Source: Shimia sp. (GTDB lineage: Bacteria > Pseudomonadota > Alphaproteobacteria > Rhodobacterales > Rhodobacteraceae). Taken from it: DNA of 64,000 bases. The stretch is taken from assembly GCF_022448905.1 (NCBI RefSeq), contig NZ_JAKVCW010000020.1:1-64000 (forward strand), given 5' to 3'. Positions within the stretch are counted from its first letter, which is position 1. Every line of letters starts with the position of its first letter. Positions 12,270-54,128 of this stretch are shown here, in pieces. The notes beneath the pieces were generated by a model that made no database searches, was not told the DNA's origin, and saw only the letters and a list, made by a program, of their open reading frames with translations. The position numbers were made by a program, and so were the translations under genes.

Positions 12270-12279
12270 GGAGCGCCCC

Positions 12280-13661: not shown

Positions 13662-13692
13662 CCCCGCACGCAAGACCAAAAAGGCTCAAGCT

Positions 13693-15575: not shown

Positions 15576-15581
15576 CGCCTT

Positions 15582-15613
15582 CCGGACAGACATCCCGCCT
15601 CGTGCCTGTCCGG
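15582..15613 (+). repeat. Intra-operon inverted repeat
   Basis: CCGGACAG (15582-15589) and CTGTCCGG (15606-15613) can pair across a 16-base loop in the 66-bp gap between the epimerase and FAD-oxidase genes. No T-run follows. It may mark an mRNA processing or stability boundary. Confidence 0.4.
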
Positions 15614-15641
15614 TTCCTCCCTCTCACGACAGGTCACAGGC

Positions 15642-16880: not shown

Positions 16881-16892
16881 AGGAGCGCCCTT

Positions 16893-17996
16893 ATGAAAAT
16901 CACCGGTTTCAACGTCTACCAAGTGGACCTGCCTCTGAAAGAAGGCCGCTATAACTGGTCCAACGGCAACTTCATCGAGGTCTTTGACAGCACAGTGCTG
17001 GAAATCCTCACTGATGAAGGCCTCAAAGGCTACGCTGAGTGCTGCCCACTGGGCTCCGCTTATCTGCCGTCTTTTGCCAAAGGCGTGCGTGCTGGCCTTG
17101 CCGAACTGGCCCCCCACCTCATTGGTCAGGACCCGCTCAACATTGGCGCCATCAACCGCACCATGGACGCCGCCCTGCGCGGTCACCCCTATGCCAAAGC
17201 CCCAGTCGACATCGCCTGCTGGGACTTGCTGGGCAAAGCCACCCTGTTGCCAGTCTACACCCTGCTGGGCGGTGCCGCGCAAGACGACGTTGTGCTCTAC
17301 CGCGCCATCAGCCAGGAAGACCCGGATGTCATGGCCAAAAAAATCGAAAGCTATGCCGCCGAAGGCTACACCAAGTTCCAACTCAAAGTGGGCGGTGAAG
17401 CCAATGACGACATTGACCGCATCCGCGCCACCCGCGCTGTTCTGAAGAAAACCGATCAGTTGGTGGCCGACGCCAATACCGGTTGGACCCGTCATGAAGC
17501 CGCCCGGGTTGTAAACGCCGTGTCCGATCTCGACGTCTATATCGAACAGCCCTGCCTGACCTATGAGGAAAGCGTCTCGATCCGCCGCCGCACCTCTCTG
17601 CCCTTTGTGATGGACGAGGTCATCGACACGCCCAACACCCTGGTGAAAGGCATTGCTGAAGACGCGATGGACGCCATCAACCTGAAAATCTCCAAGGTCG
17701 GCGGCCTCACCAAGGCCCGCCAGATGCGGGACCTCTGCGTGGCGCATGGCATCCCCATGACGATTGAGGACACCTGGGGCGGCGACATCACCACCGCAGC
17801 CATTGCCCATCTCGCACGTTCCACCCCCGCGGAATTCACTTTCTCCGCGACAGACTTCAACTCTTACGGCACAGTCACCATCGCCGAGGGTGCACCGGAG
17901 CGTAAGAATGGCCGCATGACCGCACCGGACACGCGAGGCCTTGGCATCACACCTGTGTTTGACGCTCTCGGCGAGCCAGTCGCCACCTACCGCTGA
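16893..17996 (+). CDS. Enolase-superfamily (MLE subgroup) enzyme, probable cis-3-hydroxy-L-proline dehydratase
   Basis: A 367-residue member of the muconate-lactonizing-enzyme subgroup: an N-terminal capping domain (about 1-125) and a C-terminal barrel. Candidate catalytic lysines are Lys165 (QLKVGG) and Lys265 (NLKISKVGG); metal ligands are Asp193, Glu218 and Asp241 or Glu242. The usual KxK motif reads Q-L-K here, as in hydroxyproline-betaine 2-epimerase (HpbD). Known relatives are HpbD and the cis-3-hydroxy-L-proline dehydratase of roseobacters. The next gene is a trans-3-hydroxyproline dehydratase and no Rieske-type betaine demethylase is present, so the dehydratase is favoured, giving delta1-pyrroline-2-carboxylate. 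The epimerase reading cannot be excluded. Confidence 0.75.
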
Positions 17997-18007
17997 AGGA
18001 CCACATA

Positions 18008-19033
18008 ATGCGCAGCAGCAAAACCATCCACGTGATCTCCGCCCATGCTGAAGGCGAAGTGGGCGACGTGATTGTCGGTGGCGTAACCCAGCCACCGGGC
18101 GACACCATCTGGGAGCAACGCAGCTTCATTGCCAAAGATCAAACCCTGCGGAACTTCGTCCTAAACGAACCGCGTGGTGGTGTCTTCCGCCATGTGAACC
18201 TGCTGGTACCGCCCAAACATCCGGACGCCGACGCCGCCTGGATCATTATGGAGCCCGAGGACACGCCCCCCATGTCTGGCTCCAACTCGATTTGCGTTTC
18301 CACGGTGCTTCTGGACAGTGGCATCATCCCGATGCAGGAACCGGAAACCCACATGACGCTGGAGGCCCCCGGCGGTTTGGTCAAAGTCCGTGCTGAATGC
18401 AAAGACGGCAAGGCGCAGCGTATCTTTGTGCAAAACCTGCCCAGCTTTGCCGACAAAATTGGCGTTCCGCTGGACGTACCGGGTCACGGCACAATCACGG
18501 TGGACACGGCCTATGGCGGCGACAGCTTTGTGGTTGTCGACGCCTCCGCGCTTGGCTTTGACATTGTGGAACACGAGGCCAAAGACATCGCGCGTCTGGG
18601 TGTCGCCATCACCAACGCCGCAAACGACCAGCTTGGTTTCACGCACCCGGAAAATACGGATTGGGACCACATCTCTTTCTGCGCGTTCTGCGGCCCCCTC
18701 TCCCGCACAGAGACAGGCCTCACGGGCAAATCTGCCGTGGCTATTCAGCCGGGCAAAGTGGACCGTTCCCCCACTGGCACAGCTGTCTCCGCCCGCATGG
18801 CCCTTATGGCCGCCAAGGGGCAGATGAAACCCAACGAGACCTTTGAAGCGATGTCCATCATTGGCTCCCGCTTCTCCGGCCGCATCGTGGAAAGCACATC
18901 CGTTGGCGACCGCCCAGCCATTGTCCCGGAAATCTCTGGCCGCGGCTGGGTGACCGGCATACATCAACACATGTTGGACCCGGACGATCCCTGGCCCACA
19001 GGCTACCGCCTGAGCGACACCTGGGGCGCATAA
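18008..19033 (+). CDS. Trans-3-hydroxy-L-proline dehydratase (proline racemase family, Ser/Thr active site)
   Basis: A 341-residue second member of the proline racemase fold. At the two catalytic positions it has Ser90 (MSGSNSI) and Thr256 (SPTGTA) instead of Cys/Cys. A Thr at the second position is the hallmark of trans-3-hydroxy-L-proline dehydratases, which remove the alpha proton and the 3-hydroxyl to give delta1-pyrroline-2-carboxylate. Ser at the first position is less common than Cys. The product would be reduced to L-proline by the Ldh2-family enzyme encoded convergently. It is the last gene of the long plus-strand operon. Confidence 0.82.
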
Positions 19034-19040
19034 AACAGGC

Positions 19041-19061
19041 TGGGCGGCCCTTAGCCGCCCA
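19041..19061. terminator. Bidirectional hairpin between convergent genes
   Basis: TGGGCGGC (19041-19048) pairs with GCCGCCCA (19054-19061) around a five-base loop that contains the stop codon (TTA on the plus strand, 19051-19053) of the minus-strand reductase gene. It closes both operons. Confidence 0.65.
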
Positions 19062-20067
19062 GTGTCTTCAGATCCTCAAGAAGCGCCTTTGGCACCTCAA
19101 CATATCCGCGCTCCGAATTGCGAGCCCGCGCCTCAAACCGGCGTTGAGACGGCAGCCGCGCGCCTTGCTCCAGAATATCTGCAAACAACCGCTCAGCCCG
19201 CGCATCATTATCCGCCACACGCCCACCGCTCAGGTGATACGGGTCAAACGCCAGAATGATCTGGCCATGATAGGGCGCTCCTCCCTGCCCTTCGGCAAAG
19301 GCCATGCTTTCCGCACTGGTGAGATCATCAATCAGCGGCCCGGCCATCAACTCAATCATGATCGACAGCGCGGAGCCTTTGTAGCCGCCAAAGGTCAGCA
19401 TCGCGCCATCCAACGCTGCCTGCGGGTCAGTGGTATAATTGCCCTCGGCATCTACCGCCACGCCTTCCGGCAATGGTTTGCCCGCGCGCAAATACAGCTC
19501 GATCTCCCCTCGCGCAAAGCCGCTGGTGGCAAAGTCAAACGTAAACGGGTCTTTGCCCGCACGCGGCCAGGAAAACGCCAGGGGATTGGTCCCTAGCGTC
19601 CCTCGTTTGCCGCCCGCAGGCGCAACCCAGGAATGGCTCGGCACCATAGAAAGACCAGCCAGCCCTTCTTCGGACAACCGCTCCACTTCCGGCCAAAGGG
19701 CCGAAAAGTGGAAACAGTTGTTCACCGCCATGGCCGCCATGCCAAATTTGCGCGCTTTTTCGATCAACAGCGGCATCGCCTCGTTCACCGCCAGAATAGA
19801 CATCGCATTCCGCGCATCCACCCGCACAATGGCCCCGTCGGACGGATCAATATGCGGCAAGGCATGGCCGTCGATCTTGCCCGCCTTCATGGTCTGGTGA
19901 CACATGAACAAGCGAAACAAACCGTGGGACTGACAATCATCGCGCTGACACTGATACAGCATCGAGGCAATCGCCGCGGCATGGCGCGGACCATAGCCCA
20001 CGTCTGACAAGGTTTGCACCGAAAGCGCACGCACCCCTTCCAGCGGCAACTGAACCATGTCCGTCAT
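19051..20067 (-). CDS. Ldh2/malate dehydrogenase-family reductase, probable delta1-pyrroline-2-carboxylate reductase
   Basis: A 338-residue NAD(P)H-dependent oxidoreductase of the malate/L-lactate dehydrogenase (Ldh2) family, with a VNNCFHFSALWP active-site histidine region and cofactor region near FDFATSGFARGE. In hydroxyproline and D-proline pathways such enzymes reduce delta1-pyrroline-2-carboxylate to L-proline, the fate of the products of the two dehydratases in this island. The start at 20067 is preferred because GGGAGACC precedes it and because the longer frame would run through the operator at 20101. One palindrome copy lies 34 bp upstream. Confidence 0.82.
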   Translation of the reverse strand: MTDMVQLPLEGVRALSVQTLSDVGYGPRHAAAIASMLYQCQRDDCQSHGLFRLFMCHQTMKAGKIDGHALPHIDPSDGAIVRVDARNAMSILAVNEAMPLLIEKARKFGMAAMAVNNCFHFSALWPEVERLSEEGLAGLSMVPSHSWVAPAGGKRGTLGTNPLAFSWPRAGKDPFTFDFATSGFARGEIELYLRAGKPLPEGVAVDAEGNYTTDPQAALDGAMLTFGGYKGSALSIMIELMAGPLIDDLTSAESMAFAEGQGGAPYHGQIILAFDPYHLSGGRVADNDARAERLFADILEQGARLPSQRRFEARARNSERGYVEVPKALLEDLKTLGG

Positions 20068-20100
20068 TCCAAGGTCTCCCAATCTGAGTAAGTGGATATT

Positions 20101-20113
20101 GGATACAATAGAC
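20101..20113. promoter_or_regulatory. Operator site 3 (before the reductase gene)
   Basis: GGATACAATAGAC within ATATTGGATACAATAGACTC: one half-site is perfect and the other differs by two bases from GGATACAATATCC. It lies 34 bp upstream of the minus-strand reductase start. Confidence 0.6.
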
Positions 20114-20182
20114 TCTTCCCTATTCTCAAGCCCTAAAACCACGATCCAGCTGCAAATCCTGTTGGAAAATCAGCGCCCAGCC

Positions 20183-20195
20183 GGTAGTTGTATCC
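20183..20195. promoter_or_regulatory. Operator site 4 (autoregulatory, before the GntR gene)
   Basis: GGTAGTTGTATCC matches GGATATTGTATCC (the minus-strand reading of the consensus) at 10 of 13 positions, with one half perfect. It lies 29 bp before the regulator start, fitting autoregulation. It is the weakest copy. Confidence 0.5.
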
Positions 20196-20224
20196 AAAAC
20201 ACACCTTAGAACGAGGGACACGGC

Positions 20225-20902
20225 ATGGCTGGAAAGCGCGCGGTTACCAAACAAAGTCTGCCAGAGATGATCGCCAACGATCTGCGCGAGCGCATCCTCA
20301 GCGGCGACATGTCGGAAGGTGAGCCGATCCGTCAGGAAGCCCTCGCGGAGGAATACGACGTGTCCCGCATGCCGATCCGCGAGGCCCTCAAACGCTTGAA
20401 CGCCGAAGGCCTCATCCAATGGGCCAACAACCGTGGCGGCACGGTTACCAAGCATTCTATTGCCGAGATTGGCGAAATTTTTGATCTGCGTATCCTGATC
20501 GAGACCGACCTGTTCCGCCGCGCGATCCCTTTGATGTCTTTAGCAGATTTCAGTCTTTGTGAGAAAATCCTCGATCAAATGGAAACCTCTTATGATGAGG
20601 ATGACGTGTCCCGCTGGGGCACACTCAATCACGAATATCACGGCGCGCTTTATGCCGCTGCGGGTCGTGGCCTAACCAAAGACATCCTGGACCGTATCAA
20701 CGTTCAATCAGACCGCTACGTGCGCCTACATCTCAGCGTCATGGAACAACGGGAACCGGCCAAGGAAGAGCACCGCAATCTGCTCAAACTGGCGCGGGAT
20801 CGGAATGTGGACGCCGCTTGTGATCTTCTGGCGGCCCATATCGAGCGCACCAAAACTGAGCTTCTGGAACTGATCGAAGCCAAACGCGCCATCGAAACCT
20901 AA
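20225..20902 (+). CDS. GntR-family (FadR/FCD subgroup) regulator of the hydroxyproline island
   Basis: A 225-residue regulator with an N-terminal winged helix (about 8-75: ANDLRERILSGDM, ALAEEYDVSRMPIREALKRLNAEGLI) and a helical FCD ligand-binding domain (about 85-215) with its conserved Asp/His metal ligands (LIETDLF; NHEYHGALY; HRNLL; HIERTK). Members of this subgroup usually repress catabolic genes until a substrate or intermediate binds. It lies in the centre of the island, divergent from the reductase gene and upstream of the semialdehyde dehydrogenase gene, and is the natural candidate to bind the five GGATACAATATCC-like sites. Ligand is probably a hydroxyproline or pyrroline carboxylate (inference). 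Confidence 0.88.
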   Translation: MAGKRAVTKQSLPEMIANDLRERILSGDMSEGEPIRQEALAEEYDVSRMPIREALKRLNAEGLIQWANNRGGTVTKHSIAEIGEIFDLRILIETDLFRRAIPLMSLADFSLCEKILDQMETSYDEDDVSRWGTLNHEYHGALYAAAGRGLTKDILDRINVQSDRYVRLHLSVMEQREPAKEEHRNLLKLARDRNVDAACDLLAAHIERTKTELLELIEAKRAIET

Positions 20903-39856: not shown

Positions 39857-42592
39857 TCAAGCCGCCGCGTTTTGGGCGCCATCCGTAGGAATGTAGTTGA
39901 GCACCGGCGCCAACCAGCGTTCTGCCTCTGCAAGTGTCATACCCTTGCGCGCCGCGTAGTCCGCAACCTGATCGCGCTCCACTTTGCCAACGCCAAAGTA
40001 ATAACTTTCCGGGTGGCCAATATAGAGCCCGACAACAGATGACCCCGGCCACATCGCCATGCTCTCCGTCAAGGTAACGCCGGTGGCCGTTTCTGCGTCA
40101 AGCAGTGAGAACAACGTCCGCTTTTCGGTGTGGTCCGGTTGCGCCGGATACCCCGGCGCAGGACGGATGCCTTTGTATGGCTCACCAATTAAAGCCTGCG
40201 GATCAAACTGCTCCTCTGAAGCATACCCCCAGAACTCCCGCCGCACGCGCTCGTGCAACATCTCGGCCATGGCCTCGGCAATGCGGTCTGCCAGCGCTTT
40301 CACCAGGATGGCACCATAATTGTCGTTGGTCTTGTCGAGCCGCTCGGCAATCTCAATCTCTTCCGGCCCCGCGGTCACCACAAAACCGCCAACATGATCC
40401 GCCCCCTTACCTTCAGGCACGACAAAATCAGAAAGCGCCACATTTGGTCGATCTCCGCGCTTACTTGTCTGCTGGCGCAGGGTGTGCAGCGTGCTCAACA
40501 TCTCGCCGCGGCCCTCATCCGCATACAGCCGGATGTCATCGCCCACCGCATTTGCATGCCAGAAACCAACCACAGCGCGCGGTGTGAACCAGCGCTCCGA
40601 GATGATCTTCTCAAGCATCGCCTGAGCGTCCGCAAACAACGCCCGCGCTGCTTCCCCTTGTTTTTCATCATCCAGAATTTTGGGATAAACGCCGCGCATC
40701 TCCCAGGTCTGAAAGAACGGCGTCCAGTCAATGTACCGGGCAATCTCCGCAAGGTCCCAATCCTCGACAACCCGCGTCCCCGTGAAGCTTGGCGCAACCG
40801 GCGTATAGGTGTCCCAATCCAGCTTCAGCGCGTTGCCTCGCGCTTTGGCCAGAGGCAGGCGGTTCTTGGCCCGCTCACTGCGCTCGTGCTTTTCTGCCAC
40901 ATCGGCATATTCCGCCTGCAAGGCCGCAACATAATCCGGCTTTTGCGTTGAGCTTAGCAGCGCCCCAACCACGCCAACGGCACGGCTGGCGTCGGTCACA
41001 TACACCGCCTGCCCTTTGTTGTAACGCGGCGCGATTTTCACCGCCGTATGCACACGAGAAGTGGTCGCGCCGCCAATGAGCAATGGAACATCAAACTCTT
41101 CCCGCTCAAGCTCTGTCGCAAGGTGAACCATCTCATCCAGTGACGGCGTGATAAGCCCGGACAGCCCAATGATATCGACGTTCTCATCCCGCGCCACTTC
41201 CAGAATTTTCTGTGGCGGCACCATCACGCCAAGATCAACAATCTCGTAGTTGTTGCAGGCCAGAACAACCCCGACGATGTTCTTGCCAATATCGTGCACA
41301 TCGCCCTTAACCGTGGCCATAAGGACCTTGCCGGCAGACTGACGCCCTTCGCCTCCGTTCTGGCGTTTTTCTTCTTCCATATACGGTAGCAGAACCGCCA
41401 CCGCCTGTTTCATCACACGCGCGGATTTGACCACCTGCGGCAAGAACATCTTTCCCGCGCCAAACAGATCGCCCACCACGTTCATGCCGGCCATAAGAGG
41501 CCCTTCAATCACATGCAAAGGCCGCTCTGCCGCAAGGCGCGCTTCCTCGGTATCCTCCTCGATAAACTCGGTGATGCCATTGACCAGCGCATGTTCCAAA
41601 CGCTTCTCAACTGTCCATTCACGCCAGCTCATGTCCTTCTCTTTGCCCTTCGCTCCGCCCTGTCCGCGGTAACGCTCGGCAATATCGAGCAGGTTTTCGG
41701 TCGCGTTGCCACCGTCTTTGGGCAGTCGGTTCAGCACCACATCTTCACAGGCTTCGCGCAGTTCTGGATCAATCTGGTCATAAACCGCCAACTGGCCCGC
41801 GTTGACGATCCCCATATCCATGCCAACCTTGATCGCATGATAGAGAAACACCGCATGCATGGCCTCCCGCACCGGCTCGTTGCCACGGAAACTGAACGAG
41901 AGATTGGAAACGCCACCGGAAACATGGCAATGCGGCAGGTTTTCCCGGATCCACCGTGTCGCTTCAATAAAATCGACGCCGTAGTTGTCGTGTTCCTCAA
42001 TCCCGGTCGCCACAGCAAACACATTGGGGTCAAAGATAATGTCCTCAGGCGGGAAGCCCATCTCCTCAACAAGAATACGGTAAGCCCGCGCACAGATTTC
42101 CGTTTTGCGCTCAAAGGTGTCCGCCTGGCCGGTCTCGTCAAAGGCCATCACCACCACCGCAGCGCCATAGGCCAGACAAAGGCCCGCGTGATGCCGGAAC
42201 GCCTCTTCGCCTTCCTTGAGGCTGATGGAGTTCACAACAGACTTGCCCTGCACACATTGCAGCCCGGCCTCAATCACCTCCCATTTGGAGCTGTCGATCA
42301 TAATCGGCACGCGGGCAATGTCCGGTTCTGAGGCCACCAGGTTCAAGAACTCGATCATCGCCTGTTTGCTGTCGATCAGGCCTTCATCCATGTTGATGTC
42401 GATGATCTGCGCGCCATTCTCAACCTGATCGCGCGCCACATCCAGCGCAGCGGCATAGTCGCGGTTCACGATCAACTTCCGGAACCGGGCGGAGCCGGTC
42501 ACGTTGGTACGCTCGCCGACGTTCACAAAAGGAATATCTGGGGTCAATACAAAGGGCTCAAGACCTGAGAGGCGGAGATAAGGAGCGGTCAT
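39857..42592 (-). CDS. metH: Cobalamin-dependent methionine synthase, pterin/cobalamin/activation half
   Basis: A 911-residue protein holding the last three modules of MetH. The methyltetrahydrofolate-binding domain begins near residue 20 ([21 protein letters not shown]). The cobalamin domain has the GDVHDIGKN axial histidine motif near residue 430. The reactivation domain lies from about 590 on, with [31 protein letters not shown] near the C-terminus. The homocysteine-binding module is encoded by the preceding gene, overlapping by four bases. Because the split falls exactly at the linker between modules and the overlap is ATGA, this is a natural split, not a frameshift. Together the two proteins have about the length of E. 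coli MetH. Confidence 0.9.
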
Positions 42593-43641
42593 TTGGTCAC
42601 CTCACGAGGAGCAAAAGGGGCAACGGCATCGGCGATGGCGCGGATGTGATCTGGGGTTGTGCCACAGCACCCCCCGACCAGATTGACGATCCCCTCACGG
42701 GCAAACCCTGCAACCTGAGCTGCCGTTTCATCCGGCGTTTCGTCGTATTGGCCAAAGGCATTCGGCAAACCCGCGTTGGGATAGGCACAGGTCATCGATG
42801 TCGCGACACCAGCAATCTCGGCCATATGGGGGCGCATCGCTTCTGCCCCAAGTGCACAGTTCAGGCCCACGGAGAAGGGTCGCGCGTGGGCTACGGAATG
42901 CCAGAACGCCGTCGGTGTTTGCCCCGACAGCGTCCGACCGGAGGCATCCGTGATTGTGCCCGAAATCATAATTGGCAAACGCTTCCCGGCGCGCGCAAAA
43001 CTTTCAAACGCCGCAAAAATGGCCGCCTTGGCGTTGAGCGTGTCAAAGATCGTCTCGATCAGGATCAAATCCGAACCGCCCTCGATCAACCCATCAATCT
43101 GCTGTCCATAGGCGATGCGCAGGTCGTCAAAGCTTACCGCACGAAAGCCCGGATCGTTCACATCCGGACTGATCGACGCCGTGCGGTTGGTTGGCCCCAC
43201 TGCCCCGGCCACAAACCGTGGCCGTCCGTCTTCTGCCTGCGCCCGATCCGCGGCCCGGCGCGCCACCTGGGCACCAGCGACGTTCAGATCATGCACCGCA
43301 TCTTCCAGCCCGTAATCAGCCTGCGCGATTGTCGTGGAGGAAAATGTGTTGGTCTCGAGAATGTCTGCGCCCGCCATGGCAAACTCAAACTGGATATCCT
43401 CAACCGCTTTTGGCTGGGTCAACGCCAACAGATCATTGTTCCCTTGTTGCGGCTGGTCTGGATCATAGTGATGACGGCAGCCTGGACCATGGATGTGCCC
43501 TTTGGCGGTGAAGTCTTCCTCCGACATGTTCAGCTTCTGAATCATCGTGCCCATTGCGCCATCCAGAACCAATATCCGGTCTTTCGCGAGCGCACGCAGC
43601 GTTGCGTGGGCTGGGGTTTCTGGCAGGGAAAAATTGAGCAT
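42589..43641 (-). CDS. metH: Methionine synthase, homocysteine-binding half
   Basis: A 350-residue homocysteine S-methyltransferase domain equal to the N-terminal module of MetH. The zinc ligands are Cys262 (GLNCALGAE) and Cys325-Cys326 (GGCCGTTP); [13 protein letters not shown] and the [12 protein letters not shown] loop are also conserved. It transfers the methyl group from methylcobalamin bound to the partner protein onto homocysteine. The ATG at 43641 follows GGAACC; an in-frame ATG at 43659 without a ribosome binding site is the alternative. It is the first gene of the operon and lies downstream of a perfect palindrome. Confidence 0.9.
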
Positions 43642-43720
43642 ACCGCAGGTTCCGATCATCTATGTTGGTCGGGCTTATAGCCTAGCTTAAACATGAGAGA
43701 AAAATGATGATCCCAAAGGA

Positions 43721-45092: not shown

Positions 45093-47033
45093 ATGAAAAC
45101 TGTACCGGAAACGTTTGTTCAATTCCTCTCTGAGACGAAGTTGAGAAAAGCGCGGGCGTTGGCGGTTTACCTGGCGATGGAACCAGGTAAGGAGCGACGC
45201 AGCGAACTGATCATTGACTTGCTTTGGCAGGATGCACAGCTGGCCAAGGCACGCGCCTCGCTGCGCCAAACGGTTCGGCATTTGCGTATTATGTCAGAAA
45301 CGCGAATTGCTTTTCCGCTGGTCGCCCGCAAAGGGTTACTCGTGTTAGACCACCCGAGGGACTGGAGCCTGTTTGACGAGGTGGAGCAAGGTCTGTCGGA
45401 CCCGGACCAATTCCAAACAGCGCGCCGCGCCGGATTGGACCTGCTGGATGCCTTTGAACAGCTGCTCGGGATTTCGGACAATTTTGACAGCTGGCTGGCG
45501 ATCACCCGCAACATCACCGTATCAAAACTGAGCGCGACGCTGGAAAAGGTGATGTCACAGCCCGAAGCAGCACTGTCTCAAGATGCGGCGCAGTTTCTTC
45601 TGGAGTTGAATGCCTGTCATGAGGAAGCCGCCCGATTTCTGATGCTTCAGTATTGGGAAGCAGGCGCGCCAAACAAGGCCATAGAAGTTTACAACCAGCT
45701 GTATCAGGCACTTGATGAAGCCTACGATCAAGATCCCGAAACCAGCACAATTGAACTTCTGGCGGCGATCAAGCTGAACCCCGAAGGCGCGCCAAACAAA
45801 GCTGCGGCAAAGTCGGGGCGTCCCAGTCGCGTGACGATGGTGGTGGAAGACCCCGACAACGGTCTGCTTGATGATCGCGATGCCAGCTTCCAAGCGGTCC
45901 TTGTCACAGACCTTCGCAGCCGGCTCGGCCGATTTCGCGAATGGCAGGTCATTGCCACCGAGCCAGAGGACAACGATTTCCTCGCTATCCGGCCACGCCT
46001 TTTCAAGCTGGACGGACAGTATCGTTTTCTGGTCGAAATTGTGCATCCCCGCAATCGAGAGCTGATCTGGTCCGAAATGATCGAAGATCCTCACAGCGAC
46101 TGGGTTGGCAAGGTCCGAATGCTCATGTTGAACATCGGCAACGCACTGCGGGTGGTTGTGGCGGACCGGCAGGGCAAAGACGAGCGCGCCGACCTATACG
46201 ACCGCTGGCTCCAATCCCTGGCTCTCAAGGGCACCTGGACCCATGACGACGAAGCGCACGCAGTGGCACTTCTGCGCGGCATCACCCAGGAACAACCGGA
46301 GTTTGGCCCTGCCCACGCAGAACTGGCAGGGATCTACAACATCCGCCATATCCTGCGCCCCGGCACCCATCAGGATCCAAGCCTCCGGGACAAAGCGCTG
46401 ACACATGCGCTGGACGCGGTCGCAGCAGACGCGATGGACACGCGCGCTCACCGGGTTCTGGCCTGGTGCTATTGCCATAAGGGCGAATTCGACCTGGCCG
46501 AATTCCATTTTGAGCAGTCCCTGCAATTAAATGCGCAAAATACCCAGACGTTGGCATCAGGTGTTTTGGGCTTTGCGTTTTGCAGCAATGAGCCGCGCGC
46601 CCGCGCCATGCTAATCGAGTTGGAACGGCTGCCTGAAACGCTGCAACCGTTTCACGAAATCTATCTGGCGGCTGCGCATTATCTGCTCGGCGATTACGCC
46701 ACCGCCGCAAACCATTGCGCAGGCGGCGATGGACTGATGTCGACCACCGGTGGCTGGCACAGCGCTGCACTGGCAAAACTGGGGGAAACCAAGGCCGCCA
46801 GACAACGCTTAGAGCAATATTACCAAGAAATCAGCGCGCTTTGGCACGGCACGGACACCCCGCAACTGCACGATGTGATCGACTGGTTTGTCGCCTGCTT
46901 CCCATTGCGCAGCGACGCGGTGGGGGAAGACCTGCGCCGCACGCTCTATGGTCTTGCGGCGCAGCCATTATCGTCTGATGCCCTAGTCGCACATGTTGGT
47001 GATGTAGATACCCACCGCGCGATGGAAGGCTGA
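45093..47033 (+). CDS. SARP/BTAD-type transcriptional regulator with TPR-like C-terminus
   Basis: A 646-residue regulator. The N-terminus (LRKARALAVYLAMEPGKERRSELIIDLLW, ASLRQTVRHLR) is the winged-helix pattern of SARP/AfsR-type activators and is followed by a BTAD-like helical domain (about 90-225). Residues about 255-360 resemble the TolB-like N-terminal domain seen in CadC- or cyclase-linked regulators (VLVTDLRSRLGRF ... DGQYRFLVEIVHPRNRELIWSEM). The rest, from about 380, is TPR-like helices (AHRVLAWCYCHKGEFDLAEFHFEQSLQLN). There is no transmembrane helix. It faces the YcaO-peroxidase operon and overlaps its last gene by 51 bases at the 3' end. It probably regulates that operon; inference from position. 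Confidence 0.78.
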   Translation: MKTVPETFVQFLSETKLRKARALAVYLAMEPGKERRSELIIDLLWQDAQLAKARASLRQTVRHLRIMSETRIAFPLVARKGLLVLDHPRDWSLFDEVEQGLSDPDQFQTARRAGLDLLDAFEQLLGISDNFDSWLAITRNITVSKLSATLEKVMSQPEAALSQDAAQFLLELNACHEEAARFLMLQYWEAGAPNKAIEVYNQLYQALDEAYDQDPETSTIELLAAIKLNPEGAPNKAAAKSGRPSRVTMVVEDPDNGLLDDRDASFQAVLVTDLRSRLGRFREWQVIATEPEDNDFLAIRPRLFKLDGQYRFLVEIVHPRNRELIWSEMIEDPHSDWVGKVRMLMLNIGNALRVVVADRQGKDERADLYDRWLQSLALKGTWTHDDEAHAVALLRGITQEQPEFGPAHAELAGIYNIRHILRPGTHQDPSLRDKALTHALDAVAADAMDTRAHRVLAWCYCHKGEFDLAEFHFEQSLQLNAQNTQTLASGVLGFAFCSNEPRARAMLIELERLPETLQPFHEIYLAAAHYLLGDYATAANHCAGGDGLMSTTGGWHSAALAKLGETKAARQRLEQYYQEISALWHGTDTPQLHDVIDWFVACFPLRSDAVGEDLRRTLYGLAAQPLSSDALVAHVGDVDTHRAMEG

Positions 47034-47717
47034 CACCGGCGACGCCAGAATGCGCGCCATGGATTTGCGGGTTGGATCTTCTTCGTCATCCTCAGCGCCA
47101 AGATCATTATCAAGCGCTGTTGAGTCCGCCCAAAGCGTGTTCAGCTGCGCTTTGATGGCGATTTTTGCCTCATCCGAAAGCACCGTGCCAGCCGCTTGCA
47201 CATCGGTCAGCGCGCGATCCAGCAAACCATCGTAAAAGTGCTTTACCATCAAATGATCGAGCGTATAGGTCAGCGGCGGCTCATACCCTGGTTGATTGGC
47301 CTGGGTGCTAAAAAACGCCTCGCGCTCCGCCAGCGTGTCGCGCACCGGAACCACCAGAGTGCGGGTGTTCACATCGCCGTTTTCCGCGTCCGACGTACGC
47401 TCATCCCATTGCAGCTTAAGTTCGAAGTTTTCATGGATCTGGGCAATCTTAGGGTCATTGAGGTCGTGTGTCTGATCCATCGGCACAACCGCCATCGCCT
47501 GCTTGAGCAGTTCGGCCGCTTCCTTGTACTCCGCGCTGTCCTCATCCAACGGACCTCCGCGTGACAGCTCCACCACTTTCTTACCAATAAACTCCACGTT
47601 CAACGCCGTGCCAAGCTGACCATCATTTTCCGGGTCGGTGGATACCTCACCGTCGTGATGCAAATACTTTGTCCCGCCGCCATCAACCTTGCGACCCACA
47701 ATAATATACTTGTCCAT
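46983..47717 (-). CDS. Unrecognised 244-residue protein of the YcaO/peroxidase operon
   Basis: No family is recognised. The protein is acidic, soluble, and has no signal peptide or transmembrane segment. It starts with MDKYIIVGRKVDGGGTKYLHHDGEVS, has an Asp/Glu-rich patch near residue 205 (LGAEDDEEDPTRK), and ends NMCD; the cysteine at 243 is its only cysteine. It is the last gene of a three-gene operon, 12 bases after the peroxidase gene, and its 3' end overlaps the convergent regulator gene by 51 bases. It could be a substrate, scaffold or assembly partner of the YcaO-like protein or the peroxidase. No function can be assigned. Confidence 0.75.
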   Translation of the reverse strand: MDKYIIVGRKVDGGGTKYLHHDGEVSTDPENDGQLGTALNVEFIGKKVVELSRGGPLDEDSAEYKEAAELLKQAMAVVPMDQTHDLNDPKIAQIHENFELKLQWDERTSDAENGDVNTRTLVVPVRDTLAEREAFFSTQANQPGYEPPLTYTLDHLMVKHFYDGLLDRALTDVQAAGTVLSDEAKIAIKAQLNTLWADSTALDNDLGAEDDEEDPTRKSMARILASPVSAFHRAVGIYITNMCD

Positions 47718-47729
47718 TTTACTTCCTCC

Positions 47730-49115
47730 TTACGTATTCACGATATTAATGATCTGCATGAAACTGCTGGGCTGAGGCAGATCCGGTGCAACAGCACTGG
47801 GATCGACCATGCGCACTCTGGAAATGGCGTCTTCGATCTTGCAGCGCAGCAATAGGCTACCAAGCGGCCCAAAGCCGCCGTTTTTGCCGTATAGCTGGGC
47901 CTCGATCATCAAGATCAGATGGATGTGACAACGCGCAACCTCAGCTTCCGTCAGTTCAAACCCCATCGGCGCCGCCACCTGCCGGGTAAAGTCCTGAGCA
48001 AGCTTGGTGGGTGCCAAGCGGTCGGACCAATCCGATGGCATCTGTGCCAAAACCGCTTGAATATCCGGACCGTCCAGACTTTGTGGCCCCAGGTCACGGG
48101 CAGTCGCGGCATCAAGTTGATCGATGGTCACCCCACCGCGTGGCCGGAAGAGCGGCGAGAAGCTGGCTGAGATGCCAGTTTTTGTCCCGTTCCGCGCTTG
48201 ATCAAACAACAGCGACCAATCCAACGGCCAACTGCTGAGTTTGTGCTCGTTGTTCCTCGGCGACCGCAGAACAAGTCCGCCCAGATCACGCAACTCGGGG
48301 AATTTGTAAGCTCTACGCGGCAAGGCGTGAAAAGCGCGCATCAATCCGTGCTGCGTGGTGACCGCATCAATCACTTTGTAACCGCGTAGCTCCTCTTCTG
48401 GCATCGCCGCCACTGCGGGAGCCAGAAACCAAGGCAAAAAGTCCTTGCGTATAATGCGATGCCAGCTGCGCAACACATGATTGCGCGCCATGGAAAACGC
48501 CATGTGGCGCCGGCTTTTCTCGTCCCCGGGCAACACCTGATAAAACTGCTCCGCGACACGATTGTGGTACCGCATCATGATCGCCGTTATTCGGTGCAAA
48601 AGGTGGACATCGCGGTTGCGCGCGTCGGCAATGGCCCGAACGCTCGCGTCATCGCCTCGGTGGGCCAGCGTGATGACACTCATCCGGTTGATCCGAAACA
48701 ACTGCGTTTCTTGATCATACAAATGCGGAAGAACCCGCGGGCCGGCCCCGTAGAGTGTTTCCAGTGTCAACGGGTTTTCGATGGCATTGTGACGCTTGGG
48801 CGGACACGATTCATCCTCCTCACGCACCGCATAGGGCACTTGAGTGATCGGAACACTGTGCCCCATATCGTGGCCTATCAACTGGCCCAGATAGGTATAC
48901 CCGGCCGGGATATGTTTCTTGGACGCCACACAGGCCTCACGCCAACTCTCAGACGCAAAATCAATGGCTGGCTGTTCCGATGATATGCCTGCGCCATCGC
49001 CTTCTACATGCCCCGCAGGGCATCCAGACCCGCTGACCCAGTTCTGATTTTTGTGGTGCCCCGTTTCAATATGAAAGGCCGAGATCACTTCTTCTGCTGT
49101 TGGATTATGGCTCAT
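47730..49115 (-). CDS. Animal-type heme peroxidase family protein
   Basis: A 461-residue member of the peroxidase-cyclooxygenase superfamily. The distal region is recognisable as YLGQLIGHDMGHS, with His82 in place of the usual GQFIDHD histidine, and the later LLHRITAIMMRYHNRVAEQF corresponds to the family's LHTLFLREHNRLA helix. A classical proximal motif (RFGHS) is not evident; His in MRAFHALPRRA or QHGLMRAF may serve. There is no signal peptide, so it is probably cytoplasmic, unlike secreted relatives. It lies 15 bases after the YcaO-like gene and 12 before the unknown gene, so all three are co-transcribed. Confidence 0.82.
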   Translation of the reverse strand: MSHNPTAEEVISAFHIETGHHKNQNWVSGSGCPAGHVEGDGAGISSEQPAIDFASESWREACVASKKHIPAGYTYLGQLIGHDMGHSVPITQVPYAVREEDESCPPKRHNAIENPLTLETLYGAGPRVLPHLYDQETQLFRINRMSVITLAHRGDDASVRAIADARNRDVHLLHRITAIMMRYHNRVAEQFYQVLPGDEKSRRHMAFSMARNHVLRSWHRIIRKDFLPWFLAPAVAAMPEEELRGYKVIDAVTTQHGLMRAFHALPRRAYKFPELRDLGGLVLRSPRNNEHKLSSWPLDWSLLFDQARNGTKTGISASFSPLFRPRGGVTIDQLDAATARDLGPQSLDGPDIQAVLAQMPSDWSDRLAPTKLAQDFTRQVAAPMGFELTEAEVARCHIHLILMIEAQLYGKNGGFGPLGSLLLRCKIEDAISRVRMVDPSAVAPDLPQPSSFMQIINIVNT

Positions 49116-49130
49116 TGAAAATCCCCCCGG

Positions 49131-50039
49131 TTACATAAATGGCGAATCCTGCCCCTGAAGGCCGGCATTTTCGATACCTTGCACTGTGCAACACCAAACG
49201 CGCCGCAGTTGACCGGCCGGCGTAATGTCACGCAGCGTCACCCCTTTCGACAGCGCCTCAATCGTGATCGCCTGCGCTGAAGCAGGCTCGATTTCAGCCT
49301 CAGCGCCCAAAAGCGCAGGACAACGGTGGGTATAGGCCGCTATTTTGTCTTCAATTGCGCGGGTGTCTTGGTCGCTGTGTCCGCTGCGAGAAGCCAGCAC
49401 CTCTCCCAGATTCAGCTCCATCAACAGTGTCTCACGCAACGCTTTGCGCACAGCGCGCTCAGGGTCTGTGTCGGCACCAAATCCCAGAATTGGGTCCTGG
49501 CCTGTTCCGCCCTGCGCACGGCTGACCGCAACGAAAACAACACCGGGACAGTCAAGCAACCAGACCCCCGTCTGACGGCGCTGAACAGCGCCTAGGCGCA
49601 GTTTTTTAAGCCATTCCCAGATCCCCATCCGAGACAACCAATCAGAAGAAACAGGCCGCGCGCCCATTTGCCCAAGCCACCATGCCCACACAGCGGCACG
49701 TTCATGGGCCTCAAAAATAGCAAGGCGCTGCGCAACAATCGGGTCTGGATGTGCAGCAACGCCAGATTGTCCCGTCAAAATTGGCGGCTGACCGGTTTCT
49801 CGCAGGGCAATATGCGCTTGAATTTCGGCAGTTTCACCCAGACAGCATTCCAACGCGTCTTCACGCGTGTCACCGGCCCCGCTGGCGGTCGCTGCTCCGT
49901 TCACAAGCGCTTGCAAGACACACAGGTTCGGCGACGTTAGAACTTCGCGCCAGTCCTGACGAGTCCACGCCGAAATCAGTTGGTTGGCTTCTTTCGCATT
50001 GGGTTTAGGTTGTTCTGCGCTGCCCTCAGCTGCTCCCAT
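49131..50039 (-). CDS. YcaO-like ATP-dependent (cyclo)dehydratase/thioamidase family protein, short form
   Basis: A 302-residue protein with the three ATP/Mg blocks of YcaO: GAATASGAGDTREDALECCLGETAE (Glu69, Glu72), FEAHERAAVWAWW (Glu110, Glu113) and GFGADTDPERAVRKALRETLL (Glu203). The C-terminus ends SPFM, reminiscent of the HPFP-type end of YcaO proteins. YcaO enzymes use ATP to activate peptide amides, forming azolines, thioamides or amidines. This one is about 100 residues shorter than usual. ATG 50039 is chosen for AAAGGATAA upstream. It is the first gene of an operon with a heme peroxidase and an unknown protein; no separate precursor peptide or TfuA partner was found. Confidence 0.75.
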   Translation of the reverse strand: MGAAEGSAEQPKPNAKEANQLISAWTRQDWREVLTSPNLCVLQALVNGAATASGAGDTREDALECCLGETAEIQAHIALRETGQPPILTGQSGVAAHPDPIVAQRLAIFEAHERAAVWAWWLGQMGARPVSSDWLSRMGIWEWLKKLRLGAVQRRQTGVWLLDCPGVVFVAVSRAQGGTGQDPILGFGADTDPERAVRKALRETLLMELNLGEVLASRSGHSDQDTRAIEDKIAAYTHRCPALLGAEAEIEPASAQAITIEALSKGVTLRDITPAGQLRRVWCCTVQGIENAGLQGQDSPFM

Positions 50040-50295: not shown

Positions 50296-51516
50296 TTAAG
50301 CCGACACATCATCGCCAAGGTTGCCGCGTCCGGAGATCGCAGGCCAATACGCGACCAACCTCAAAAGAAAACCTGCCGTCCACAAGAGAGAGGCGACGGC
50401 GTACATGGGGCCAGGCAAATCCACGCCAAAATCGGGCGCAACTCGAAGGGCGACCGCAGCAACAAGGCAATTGGCACCAAAACGGGTTCTGATCGACAAG
50501 CCCAAAGGTTGATCCGTGTGTAGTAGCCCCGCAATGGCAAACACGGCGTAGGTGCCCACCCCCAGACCGCCCATAAAAGCCACATGCAGACCAGACACCT
50601 CGGACCAGAAGGCACCAAGACGCGCCGCACCAAACAGGATCAATCCCCCGCCGGCCAACGCGCTGCTTCCGGCCAGCATCAAGATTTCCGCCCGCAGAGC
50701 CTCCCGGCCAATGAATCCTTCTGCCACACGATCCATAAACGCCGCCCCTGCTGCACACCAAAGAAACCCCGAAACAGCGTCGCTGAGACCGGCCGCTTCC
50801 CCCATCATCGCCACAAACACCAATCCTGGTGCCAGATGAAGACGGCCGGGATGAGGGCGGAAAGGAGAGGTTTCCTCGGAAGGATCCAGAACAAGATTGG
50901 TGACAGGCACGGTGATACGCGAAAGCGCAAGGCCAAGCAGACCCAGAAACGCAAAACCCGCGAGGTAAATGCCTTTGCTGGCAAGCTCAAAGCTGTCGAC
51001 ATGGAAACCGAAACGTCCGACCGCCGTGCAAATTGCCAGCAGGGCCAGCCAAAACACAAACGGGAGAAGTCGATCTGTTCTTCTTTGCAAGGACAGGTGA
51101 ACAAGCCAGCCAACCAAGCCAACCATCCAGAGCGCATCGGCCAAAGCACCAATCAGGCCAATATCTTCCCAGCCCAGAAACCCCACTCCCCGACCAACGC
51201 TCCATAGCGCCAACAAGCGCCACAGCCACGCGCCGCGCGGTGGCTCAGTGTCTGTCCATTCCGGGGCGGCGGTAGTGATAAACCCAATGAGCGCGGCACC
51301 AAAGGCTCCGACAATCATCTCATGTGCATGCCACAAGGACGGCGGAACGGTCTCTGCCAAAGGAACTCCCAAGCCAAACGCGAGGATCCAAAGCAGCGGA
51401 TAAAACGCAGCATAAAGCGCCGCGACGGGAAAGAAGAGCCGAAAGCCCTCTTCAGACAACGTCGCCCAAAGACCAGACGTCAAGGTCCGACGATGCGCCG
51501 TAGGTCCACAACTCAT
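50296..51516 (-). CDS. nnrS: NnrS-family heme/copper membrane protein
   Basis: A 406-residue integral membrane protein with about twelve transmembrane helices. Family signs are FRLFFPVAALYAAFYPLLW at the N-terminus, PPSLWHAHEMIVGAFGAALIGFITTAAPEWT near residue 80 with conserved histidines, and further histidines in FGFHVDSFE and GLHVAFMGGLGVGTYA. NnrS proteins are haem- and copper-binding and relieve nitrosative stress in NO-handling bacteria. It is the last gene of an operon with an ABC transporter of the nitrate/sulfonate type, joined by an ATGA overlap. Confidence 0.88.
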   Translation of the reverse strand: MSCGPTAHRRTLTSGLWATLSEEGFRLFFPVAALYAAFYPLLWILAFGLGVPLAETVPPSLWHAHEMIVGAFGAALIGFITTAAPEWTDTEPPRGAWLWRLLALWSVGRGVGFLGWEDIGLIGALADALWMVGLVGWLVHLSLQRRTDRLLPFVFWLALLAICTAVGRFGFHVDSFELASKGIYLAGFAFLGLLGLALSRITVPVTNLVLDPSEETSPFRPHPGRLHLAPGLVFVAMMGEAAGLSDAVSGFLWCAAGAAFMDRVAEGFIGREALRAEILMLAGSSALAGGGLILFGAARLGAFWSEVSGLHVAFMGGLGVGTYAVFAIAGLLHTDQPLGLSIRTRFGANCLVAAVALRVAPDFGVDLPGPMYAVASLLWTAGFLLRLVAYWPAISGRGNLGDDVSA

Positions 51517-52262
51517 GCGATCTGCCTTTCGTCCACATCATGGATATGGCGGAAAATGGGATCAGACCTAAGCGCATCCTGCACCCATGCAAAAACCTGC
51601 GCATCTCCCCGATGTCCCGGCGTATCGGGCAACAAACGTTCCCCGAGAATGCCATCACCACGCGCATCCAAAACGGCAATTCGATGCGAAATCCGTGCGG
51701 CCTCTTGCAAGTCATGGGTGATAAATAACCCCGCCCTCTGACCGCCCGCGCAGGTTTCGATCAACACGTCCTGCATACGGCGGCGCAACGCGACATCCAG
51801 TGCGGTAAACGGCTCATCAAAAAACAGAAAGTCCGGCTCAATGGCCAATGCCCGCGCAATAGCCACCCGTTGACGCATGCCACCTGAAAGCTCTACGGGA
51901 AACTTATCCAGATCCTCCGCCTCCAGCGCCACTTGCGCTGCAGCTTGCGCTATCCGGCGCGCACGTTCTTTGCGCGGCAGACCCGTCAACCGCAACACGT
52001 AATCAATGTTTCCCTGTGCTGTCGCCCAAGGCAGCAAAGCCGGATCCTGAAAGATCATTCCATGACGAAGATAGCCACGCGTGATCCGGCCCTCCTTTGC
52101 CTCAACAAGTCCCGCGGCGATATGGGCCAGTGTGGACTTGCCGCTGCCAGACGGCCCGACAAGCGCAACAATTTCTCCCGCCTGAACATCCAGCGTGATC
52201 CCAGATAGGTTGGTCCGCCCCAGATAGGCGTGACCGATGTTTTGCAAACGCAACAAACTCAT
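51513..52262 (-). CDS. ABC transporter ATP-binding protein (SsuB/TauB/NrtD type)
   Basis: A 249-residue ATPase with Walker A GPSGSGKST, signature [14 protein letters not shown] and Walker B FLFFDEPFTALD, as in nitrate/sulfonate/taurine importers. The switch histidine is in FITHDLQEAAR. It overlaps the permease before it and nnrS after it by four bases each. Ligand unknown. Confidence 0.87.
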   Translation of the reverse strand: MSLLRLQNIGHAYLGRTNLSGITLDVQAGEIVALVGPSGSGKSTLAHIAAGLVEAKEGRITRGYLRHGMIFQDPALLPWATAQGNIDYVLRLTGLPRKERARRIAQAAAQVALEAEDLDKFPVELSGGMRQRVAIARALAIEPDFLFFDEPFTALDVALRRRMQDVLIETCAGGQRAGLFITHDLQEAARISHRIAVLDARGDGILGERLLPDTPGHRGDAQVFAWVQDALRSDPIFRHIHDVDERQIA

Positions 52263-53077
52263 CGCTTTACCCCCCAGGGCTGAGCAGCTCGGCGCCAGCT
52301 GTCGACTTCTGATTTCACCGGCTGCACAAGCGTGTATTCGACAATTATCAACAAGCCGACTGACACCAAAACCCAGGCTAGCGCCTGCGCAATATCGAGG
52401 TTGATACGCGCCTCCGCCAAGGCTCCGCCAATGCCGCCCGCATTGGCCAGAAGTTCTGCCATCACCGCCACTTTGAACGACGTACCAAGCGCCAAGGCCA
52501 GTGCAGGAAACAGCGTGGTGGTGGTTTGTCGCAAACCCACGGTGAGAAAGCGCCGGATAGGGCCTGCGCCAAAGGCTTCCGCCATCCGATCCAATCCGCG
52601 ATCCCGTGTTGTGATACCGCGCGCCGCGCCCATGAACACAACCGGCAAGGCGGAAATCAGGATCACCGTGCGCACGGTCGCGTCCGACCCGCCAAACCAG
52701 ATCATGGCCAGCACAATCCAGGCGATGGGCGGCACGCCCAAGAGCACGGTGATCAGGGGCGTCACCAACCGAAGCGTGGCCGGGGAGTATCCTGCGACAA
52801 TCCCAAGCGCGGTTCCGGAAATGCCGACAAGAGCAAATCCCGTGATCGCCCGCTGAAGCGTCAGCCCCCCTATTGCCCAGGCTTCCGCGTCCCGTGCCAA
52901 CAGGCCAATGGCCCTGAGCGTGTCCAATGGCGCCGTCAGGATGAAGGGGCCATAAGCCTCATGGCCCGCCTGCCAAGCGGCGGCAAGCAGGCACAACGCC
53001 GCCAATCCAGCCCATCCGGACCAGAGAAACTCCAACACACGTCCGGCACGGGAAAGGAGGAATGACCAGACTGTCAC
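52259..53077 (-). CDS. ABC transporter permease (SsuC/TauC type)
   Basis: A 272-residue permease with about six transmembrane helices and the EAA-like loop RMAEAFGAGPIRRFLTVGLRQTTTTLFPALA typical of the SsuC group. A GTG at 53077 is used as start because AAAGGA lies upstream; a TTG further upstream would run into the binding-protein gene region. It lies 52 bases after the binding-protein stop. Confidence 0.83.
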   Translation of the reverse strand: MTVWSFLLSRAGRVLEFLWSGWAGLAALCLLAAAWQAGHEAYGPFILTAPLDTLRAIGLLARDAEAWAIGGLTLQRAITGFALVGISGTALGIVAGYSPATLRLVTPLITVLLGVPPIAWIVLAMIWFGGSDATVRTVILISALPVVFMGAARGITTRDRGLDRMAEAFGAGPIRRFLTVGLRQTTTTLFPALALALGTSFKVAVMAELLANAGGIGGALAEARINLDIAQALAWVLVSVGLLIIVEYTLVQPVKSEVDSWRRAAQPWGVKR

Positions 53078-53129
53078 AATAGCGTCCTTTGGGATGGCAG
53101 AGGCGTCAATCCGCCCCTGCCCTGGCTGG

Positions 53130-54128
53130 TTAAATGTAGAAGGCGTCGTCCGGCAACTTGCCGCCAATCTTCTTCATCTCTGCCCCAGACATCGCGCTCA
53201 GCATACGCTCAATATCCGCACGCGCTTCATGCGAAGCGCGCACCACCAGGTTGGAGCTTGGCACAGATTTTGCCAGCACCGGAGCCGGCAATCCCAGAGC
53301 ATCGGTGGCATTTTTGGCGACAGACATCGGATCGCTTTGCACCTCTGCAACTGACAAGTCCAGGGCCGCCTGAATGGCAGGCAGCGCCTGGGCAGAGCTA
53401 TCCAGGAAGCTTTGCGTGACCGCAAGGCCTGCCTGTGGCAACACTGGCGCCGCACCCGTCATCTCCCCCCAGGCCTCTTGCAGGTCGATCACCCGATGGA
53501 TGGTTTTGCCAGCCATTTTTTTGCCTTTGAGAATGGCGGCTGTGGCCGCAGGCTCAGACGTTAACGCCGCATCCACACGCCCCGCCATCATCATCTGCAT
53601 CGCCTCTGTTGGCGTGCCTGTGTAGGTGATCTTGAGGTCCGTTTCAGCCGCCAGATTGTGATGCTCAAGCAGCTGCGCCAACAGAATTTCCGGTGTATCC
53701 CCCCGGAATGGCACGGCGATGTGCCGCCCTTTGAGATCAGCGATACCTTTGATCGCAGCATCTTCTGAGATCACATACAAGAGCCCATTGGTCATCACGT
53801 TGGTCAGTCGGATTGGAAAGCCCCGATTGTAGAGGTTCGCTGCGGCCTGAACCGGCACCACGGAGATTTGAATAGAGCCGGAGGTGAGCCCCGCCCGCAA
53901 CTCATCCGGGCTGCGCCATGCGGTGAAACTGGGGGCCGCAGAAACCTCGGCAAGTTTTCCAGAGGCGACCGCATGGGCCAAGGTGATCGAAGGCCCAGCG
54001 GGCGGCCCAAAAATCGACAGCTCTGGCAGCGCCATGGCCTGTGCCATCGTGCCGATCGCCGGTGTCGCGAGACCGGCAGCCGTGGCTTTCAAAAACAGGC
54101 GACGTGAGAAGTTGGTGTGATTGGCCAT
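53130..54128 (-). CDS. ABC transporter substrate-binding protein (nitrate/sulfonate/taurine-like), Tat-exported
   Basis: A 332-residue binding protein of the NMT1/SsuA family. The N-terminus (SRRLFLKATAAGLATPAIG) is a twin-arginine signal, suggesting folding or cofactor loading before export. AAAGGACATG lies before the ATG. It is the first gene of the operon ending with nnrS. The SsuA-like fold binds small anions or heterocyclic compounds; ligand not determined. The pairing with NnrS hints at a nitrogen-oxyanion or metal-related role, which is speculative. Confidence 0.83.
   Translation of the reverse strand: MANHTNFSRRLFLKATAAGLATPAIGTMAQAMALPELSIFGPPAGPSITLAHAVASGKLAEVSAAPSFTAWRSPDELRAGLTSGSIQISVVPVQAAANLYNRGFPIRLTNVMTNGLLYVISEDAAIKGIADLKGRHIAVPFRGDTPEILLAQLLEHHNLAAETDLKITYTGTPTEAMQMMMAGRVDAALTSEPAATAAILKGKKMAGKTIHRVIDLQEAWGEMTGAAPVLPQAGLAVTQSFLDSSAQALPAIQAALDLSVAEVQSDPMSVAKNATDALGLPAPVLAKSVPSSNLVVRASHEARADIERMLSAMSGAEMKKIGGKLPDDAFYI

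Follow-up and report, generated by a model that had tools for sequence, protein, structure and literature searches.

In the analysed window, a stretch of 64,000 nucleotides of Shimia sp. (contig NZ_JAKVCW010000020.1), three genes on the minus strand encode a short stand-alone YcaO protein, an animal-type haem peroxidase, and a protein of 244 residues referred to as U, and face a gene for a BTAD/SARP-type regulator. We consider it rather likely that these genes form a protein-modification cassette resembling those of ribosomally synthesised and post-translationally modified peptides (RiPPs), in which YcaO and peroxidase modify a conserved cysteine at the C-terminus of U. With good confidence U is regarded as the precursor or substrate, an assignment well supported by its tail and the co-occurrence of this tail with YcaO and peroxidase; that both enzymes act on the tail is somewhat less certain, though still favoured. 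Directly observed are the gene unit and its conservation, a YcaO-peroxidase fusion, the tail, which co-occurs with both enzymes, and, by profile comparison, an NHLP-like leader (nitrile hydratase leader peptide) in remote types of the cassette. The features are as follows.

49131-50039, minus strand: stand-alone YcaO protein of the short form, 302 aa from ATG (Pfam PF02624, fold match, invariant glutamates)
47730-49115, minus strand: animal-type haem peroxidase, 461 aa (Pfam PF03098, invariant motif residues)
46983-47717, minus strand: protein U, candidate precursor or substrate, 244 aa, sole cysteine Cys243 (sequence, alignments, model, neighbourhood in relatives)
46986-47030, minus strand: codons of the conserved C-terminal tail, U residues 230-244 = AFHRAVGIYITNMCD, proposed modification site (most conserved stretch)
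46989-46991 and 47004-47006, minus strand: codons of Cys243 and Tyr238, respectively, within the U tail
45093-47033, plus strand: BTAD/SARP-type regulator with TPR repeats (Pfam BTAD just above cut-off, homologues beside the loci of relatives)

The genes follow each other in the order YcaO, peroxidase, and U with intergenic gaps of 15 and 12 bases, and the open reading frames (ORFs) confirm the arrangement described in a first-pass annotation of this DNA, i.e., an operon of YcaO, peroxidase, and a third protein facing a SARP-type regulator. The regulator gene converges on the operon, sharing 51 bases with the 3' end of the U gene. An alternative GTG start at position 50147 would result in a YcaO of 338 aa.

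No match of U was observed in Pfam or NCBIfam up to an E-value of 1, and its homologues are 25-77% identical to the protein of the window in alignments. Among 27 aligned sequences, the tail is the most conserved stretch of 15 residues, with a mean majority fraction of 0.88 compared to 0.49 elsewhere, and ends with Tyr-x4-Cys-x. Invariant residues outside the tail are R107, D115, N117, R119, P147, P148, Y151, and D154. Conservation of the tail merely due to the overlap with the regulator gene was considered and is refuted by 12 loci (11 of Paracoccus and one of a Rhodobacter metagenome-assembled genome, some of them close relatives), in which the overlap comprises four bases or none and conservation is kept at the protein level. 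Since codons vary at 12 of the 15 positions in these tails and residues at three, the constraint acts on the protein. The first-pass annotation had stated that a separate precursor gene is missing; considering the conserved tail and its co-occurrence with YcaO and peroxidase, this statement is not supported, as the third protein U itself is the likely precursor or substrate.

A search with the whole protein detected U in six of the 295 genomes that represent the family, the window's own among them, and in six plasmid records (five of Paracoccus and one of Phaeobacter), for four of which the neighbourhood was examined. In a collection of species genomes, U occurs at 26 loci, identified by a scan with two peptide patterns, one of which overlaps part of the tail. 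The record titles of these loci give Rhodobacteraceae or Alphaproteobacteria, or individual genera that we take to belong to the Rhodobacteraceae. Except for L032 and L046, which are cut by a contig end within the cassette, YcaO, peroxidase, U, and regulator are present at all of them (24 out of 26, with a cut regulator in L028), and a regulator homologue is situated beside 25 of the 26 loci in full and beside L028 in part. On the stretch of plasmid L012 no such regulator is present. The neighbours named in the first-pass annotation, i.e., YcaO, peroxidase, and third protein beside the BTAD regulator, are thus kept together as a unit in other genomes. Shimia CNT1-13L.2 has a single ORF of 818 aa in which YcaO and peroxidase are fused.

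Clustering of the flanking ORFs of at least 110 aa at 48 loci revealed, apart from the cassette genes, no group that occurs in more than eight loci; ORFs shorter than 110 aa lie outside this clustering. No protease and no exporter linked to the cassette were found, and these flanks revealed no widely shared gene that might encode an E1-like or RiPP recognition element (SagC) partner, which was not sought by profile. The group with eight members is situated at varying places. A protein of approximately 400 aa is common to five of the 48 flanks (L011 5122-6315, L025, L028, L029, and L104), in several cases near the cassette.

Searches with YcaO or peroxidase, for which the tail was not used, revealed 15 further loci, namely L021, L102-L106, L110, L114, L116, L147, and L203-L207, referred to as type II in distinction to the loci with U (type I). 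They occur in a Shimia-group genome, Paroceanicella, Mesorhizobium (e.g., M. huakuii pMhuNZP2235a), and further genomes either of the same family as the window or from elsewhere in the Alphaproteobacteria. All type II loci contain peroxidase, YcaO, and BTAD regulator, with YcaO cut by a contig end in L116 and internally deleted in L204, and a partner ORF that ends with Tyr-x4-Cys-x(1-2) and is hardly alike elsewhere (e.g., RLGDYVLQHCD, RVGDYTISYCA, and FADYTLSHCGP). In case of L110 the ORF with the tail is located on the opposite strand and the membership of this locus is less certain. L204 stems from the same family as L203 and L205.

A further group, type III (L157, L158, and L218), and L220 combine YcaO and peroxidase with a small ORF ending with SCASC, CCAAC, CCSEC, or RRCR; these ORFs were selected by a search for a C-terminal Cys near YcaO and peroxidase. 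In the three type III loci (family of G576) the partner ORF ends with C-x-x-C (HHLIRSCASC type) with His replacing Tyr, and a protein encoded nearby has a weak match to the regulator profile. On L115 (1-3211, G534 contig 49), a YcaO gene cut by the end of the stretch is accompanied by a TPR protein with a cyclase domain and a small ORF ending with CGCAD, and no peroxidase is present on the stretch; possibly, this locus is related to the type III cassettes and lacks the peroxidase.

After one duplicate was dropped and places fetched twice were excluded, 49 distinct precursor candidates were counted, 30 of type I and 15 of type II with Tyr five residues before Cys, and four without Tyr. All 49 have Cys at one of the three C-terminal positions; as the tail was the picking pattern for types I and II, this count is descriptive and does not constitute a test. 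A universal Tyr-Cys cross-link was rejected as the principal explanation due to the four type III and L220 candidates without Tyr.

The association of the tail with the two enzymes was analysed at 91 distinct peroxidase loci, 46 with and 45 without YcaO on the stretch, the absence of YcaO being uncertain in some cases due to short or contig-cut stretches. In 41 of the 46 YcaO-bearing loci, many of which were found through U, the tail is part of an ORF on the same strand that ends 240-1400 bases past the peroxidase gene; the other five are L110 and the type III and L220 loci. The 62 loci found without U comprise 18 with and 44 without YcaO. Among the 18, a tail on the same strand just after the peroxidase was observed in 13, with the exceptions of L110, where it is on the other strand, and of L157, L158, L218, and L220, which have another C-terminal Cys. 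Among the 44, the tail follows the peroxidase in a single case (L204 with a deleted YcaO gene) and in none of the remaining 43, for which no strong match to the regulator was obtained either. The lack of the tail at all of these 43 loci without YcaO and regulator indicates that it is tied to the cassette and not to the peroxidase fold. In the first locus set, in which several loci represent one place fetched twice, a Tyr-x4-Cys-x tail was present in 46 of 10,619 stop-to-stop ORFs of at least 60 aa, and all but one (L029, 13641-13937) are located in cassettes.

In a tree of the 91 peroxidases, those of types I and II form one clade with 43 of 44 members (all but L110), without any solo member and with a support of 0.989. 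The peroxidases of type III, L110, and L220 fall outside this clade, and parsimony requires four changes between cassette and solo state. Thus, the pairing of YcaO and peroxidase may have arisen more than once, but the number of independent origins is uncertain owing to the low support around L220 (0.33-0.41).

For comparison of the partner proteins with known precursors, NHLP leaders were gathered from genomes with TIGR03793. In profile comparisons with these leaders, type III reached 96% and a score of 50.4 over 70 columns (three sequences, no shuffle control), and type II (12 of the 15 proteins) reached 91.4% and a score of 40.9. For type II, none of 60 column shuffles scored above 17.0, and the reversed profile scored 11.8. 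Types II and III matched each other with 48%, and an unrelated control, YcaO against type II, gave 0.2%. Searched singly, ten type II and III proteins had no NCBIfam match up to an E-value of 10. These profiles suggest that the type II and III proteins represent NHLP precursors of a derived kind; U is linked to them by its tail, its gene neighbourhood, and a weak similarity of profiles.

The similarity of the first protein to YcaO, proposed in the first-pass annotation, is borne out by the profile search (54.6 bits for Pfam PF02624, cut-off 25.7). All ten A2 members matched Pfam YcaO at an E-value of 0.01, and the ten type II and III YcaO proteins tested exceed the cut-off of this family. E69, E72, E110, E113, R114, and E203 are invariant across 23 aligned type I sequences and include the Glu pairs 69/72 and 110/113 noticed earlier; the conserved glutamates are predicted to be ATP/Mg residues. 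The AlphaFold model of the window YcaO (pLDDT 90) has no separate N-terminal domain. Its top Foldseek matches are YcaO enzymes, the best being 6ci7 (E-value 5.4e-9, TM 0.64 by query length), with the Methanopyrus YcaO, LynD, TruD, McbD, and others at TM values of about 0.6 and a root-mean-square deviation of 6-7. By profile, the nearest solved relatives are TruD, LynD, and MusD. The window YcaO is the single one detected in its genome, which has no match to the SagB flavin dehydrogenase and, in agreement with the first-pass annotation, none to TfuA. In case of five remote YcaO proteins, the score for the SagD model is higher than that for the McrA-thioamidation model, all remaining under the SagD cut-off. 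The closer scores to the SagD type favour azoline formation without proving it. A search of plasmids with a type II YcaO (L114) gave no match.

By Pfam match (PF03098, 27.9 bits, cut-off 25) and predicted haem-site residues, the second protein is an animal-type haem peroxidase. Q78, H82, D83, R166, R260, and H263 are invariant in ten sequences, and the motifs Q-x3-H-D, R-N, and R-x-x-H, which presumably provide the distal and proximal haem residues, are kept. The protein shares the animal-type haem peroxidase profile with the family of dual oxidase and of myelo- and lactoperoxidase, but differs from these by a dedicated YcaO neighbour and the lack of a signal peptide evident by eye. In the mammalian enzymes an Asp before the distal His forms a haem ester; at the position that we take to correspond to it, the window peroxidase has Gly. 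No relative of the peroxidase was found in phage records (tblastn, E-value 1e-3).

Taken together, U would consist of a folded carrier part and a conserved C-terminal core ending with Tyr-x4-Cys-x, and would present this tail to YcaO. With ATP, YcaO would activate the backbone amide preceding Cys243 and close a thiazoline, the next choice being a thioamide. Subsequently, the haem peroxidase would oxidise the site in the role of the flavin dehydrogenase of classical azole RiPPs, either from thiazoline to thiazole or to a cross-link involving the Tyr five residues upstream of Cys. The thiazoline-to-thiazole chemistry is suggested tentatively, as one possibility among several, and a Tyr-Cys cross-link appears unlikely. 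The regulator presumably switches the operon. The product is probably retained inside the cell, either still bound to U or after trimming by proteases of the host, as would be expected from the conserved tail, the lack of a Gly-Gly site, and the fact that no conserved exporter was seen. It is tempting to speculate further that, in a new class of ribosomal protein modification, YcaO and peroxidase jointly build a cofactor-like group (an azole or a Tyr/His-Cys cross-link) from the Tyr-x4-Cys tail of a folded carrier protein, which is kept and used in the cell, and that such enzyme pairs were recruited repeatedly to substrates with a C-terminal Cys, but this extension is doubtful.

The closest precedent is provided by bottromycin biosynthesis, which combines a YcaO lacking its usual partner with a haem enzyme that replaces the flavin dehydrogenase: according to PMC5103208, thiazoline formation on Cys8 is implied for BtmE and the oxidative step is predicted for the P450 BtmJ, the cluster being without flavin dehydrogenase. 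In case of the cassette, a peroxidase takes the place of the P450, the Cys belongs to the very C-terminus of a large protein, and the chemistry is a prediction; moreover, the bottromycin cluster has two YcaO proteins, the second one for the macroamidine, compared to the one in the window's genome. A P450 for oxidative decarboxylation is a further hallmark of bottromycins. Proteusins and NHLP-type precursors of thiazole/oxazole-modified microcins (TOMM) resemble the cassette by the NHLP leader match of types II and III in profile comparison, by the YcaO partner, and by a globular precursor, since a proteusin precursor is reported globular in solution (PMC10858898). They differ in that their cores are described as hypervariable (PMC2887384), whereas the tail is conserved here without a conserved Gly-Gly or a conserved exporter seen, that the peroxidase adjoins YcaO, and that the window U itself has no direct NHLP match. 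YcaO-TfuA thioamidation likewise acts on the peptide backbone, but lacks a counterpart here with respect to TfuA and to the model scores, and the SagBCD type of TOMM and linear azol(in)e-containing peptides (LAP) is not matched either with respect to the SagD cut-off and SagB. The cassette thus would work like a RiPP system with a stand-alone YcaO, yet it lacks defining features tested for TOMM/LAP (a score above the SagD cut-off and SagB), thioamidated RiPPs (TfuA), and NHLP precursors (Gly-Gly site and variable core). A description of a pair of YcaO and haem peroxidase was not found in searches of open-licence full text of PMC, subscription papers lying outside this search, and the first-pass statement that the combination does not match a nameable RiPP class stands in this literature.

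Several observations weigh against a modified tail of U. The modification itself is inferred. In the window YcaO, the alignment to PF02624 covers no more than positions 110-268 of 325, i.e., half of the model, and the score for the SagD-type model of NCBIfam is 35.8 bits, far under the cut-off of 219.25, which was reached by no YcaO tested. U is large and, according to its model, globular, unlike typical RiPP precursors, and its tail is nearly invariant, whereas the cores of typical RiPP precursors vary. A conserved Gly-Gly is missing: just three of the 30 type I proteins and three of the 15 type II proteins have GG in their 60 C-terminal residues. Compared to the NHLP profile, the window U reached 1.1% and thus no direct match, and its similarity to type II is weak (13.6%, score 27.6, with 21.2 for the best shuffle and 23.5 for the reversed profile). 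In L204, YcaO is internally deleted (11705-12406) although peroxidase, regulator, and tail protein are kept. Some of the type I sequences were gathered with a DNA pattern that extends into the tail, and Tyr belongs to the selection pattern of the 45 tailed candidates, while the four others, chosen by their Cys end, are without Tyr. Finally, Tyr-x4-Cys-x(1-2) matches occur elsewhere on four stretches without YcaO (L172, L211, L213, and L217), probably by chance.

Part of these observations would also agree with U as a partner protein or enzyme, whose tail docks into the peroxidase or whose Cys ligates or reduces it, with YcaO modifying something else, e.g., the peroxidase. The AlphaFold model of U (pLDDT 83.8, pTM 0.79) is globular, with a C-terminal helix that stops just before the last residues; it has no fold match in the PDB below an E-value of 0.001, and the two matches obtained by sequence are at chance level. 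The invariant residues outside the tail point in the same direction. The partners of types II and III, however, are small, share hardly any sequence beyond the tail, and resemble known RiPP precursors in an NHLP-like leader indicated by profile comparison, and the tail is absent after the peroxidase at all 43 loci without YcaO and regulator; hence we regard a mere partner role as unlikely. Less likely still is a short C-terminal peptide that is cut from U and exported as signal or antimicrobial. RiPP logic, the plasmid-borne cassettes, and the BTAD regulator would fit such a product, but no gene of at least 110 aa besides the four of the cassette is shared by more than 8 of the 48 flanks, no conserved Gly-Gly site exists, and the core is conserved in contrast to the hypervariable NHLP cores (PMC2887384).

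A chance or loose clustering, with an oxidative-stress peroxidase beside unrelated genes, might be assumed from the weak Pfam match of the peroxidase and from the 45 of 91 related loci without YcaO. It is largely refuted by the conservation of four genes across genera, the YcaO-peroxidase fusion, and the cassette-specific peroxidase clade, and is considered highly improbable. A known defence or phage role is not supported either, since none of the four proteins has a match in PADLOC or PHROGs up to an E-value of 0.01.

The proposed modification of the U tail, which we prefer to these alternatives, assigns a precise site (a single Cys close to the C-terminus of one protein) to a pair of YcaO and animal-type haem peroxidase. 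If true, a peroxidase joins the oxidants acting after YcaO chemistry, and an explanation is obtained for an unannotated protein family of the Rhodobacteraceae and for its distant equivalents there and elsewhere in the Alphaproteobacteria. One would then also have to ask for what purpose a modified protein tail is conserved and retained in bacterial cells.

In case of the regulator, the BTAD domain scores 22.6 bits in Pfam compared to a cut-off of 22.1, and the TPR matches are under their cut-offs. Approximately 0.8 kb beyond the cassette regulator of L034 in Paracoccus denitrificans DSM 413 (13509-20495), a second YcaO (241.9 bits) is accompanied by an ABC transporter, a radical SAM protein, and a small protein rich in Cys and Gly. 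These genes may form a separate RiPP-like cluster, and L036 and L014 contain a second YcaO as well. In the window, an NnrS-family protein and an ABC transporter set including an NMT1-like binding protein are encoded upstream of the operon (50296-54128, minus strand). At 39857-43659, likewise on the minus strand, the protein sequence suggests a B12-dependent methionine synthase that is apparently split into two overlapping genes.

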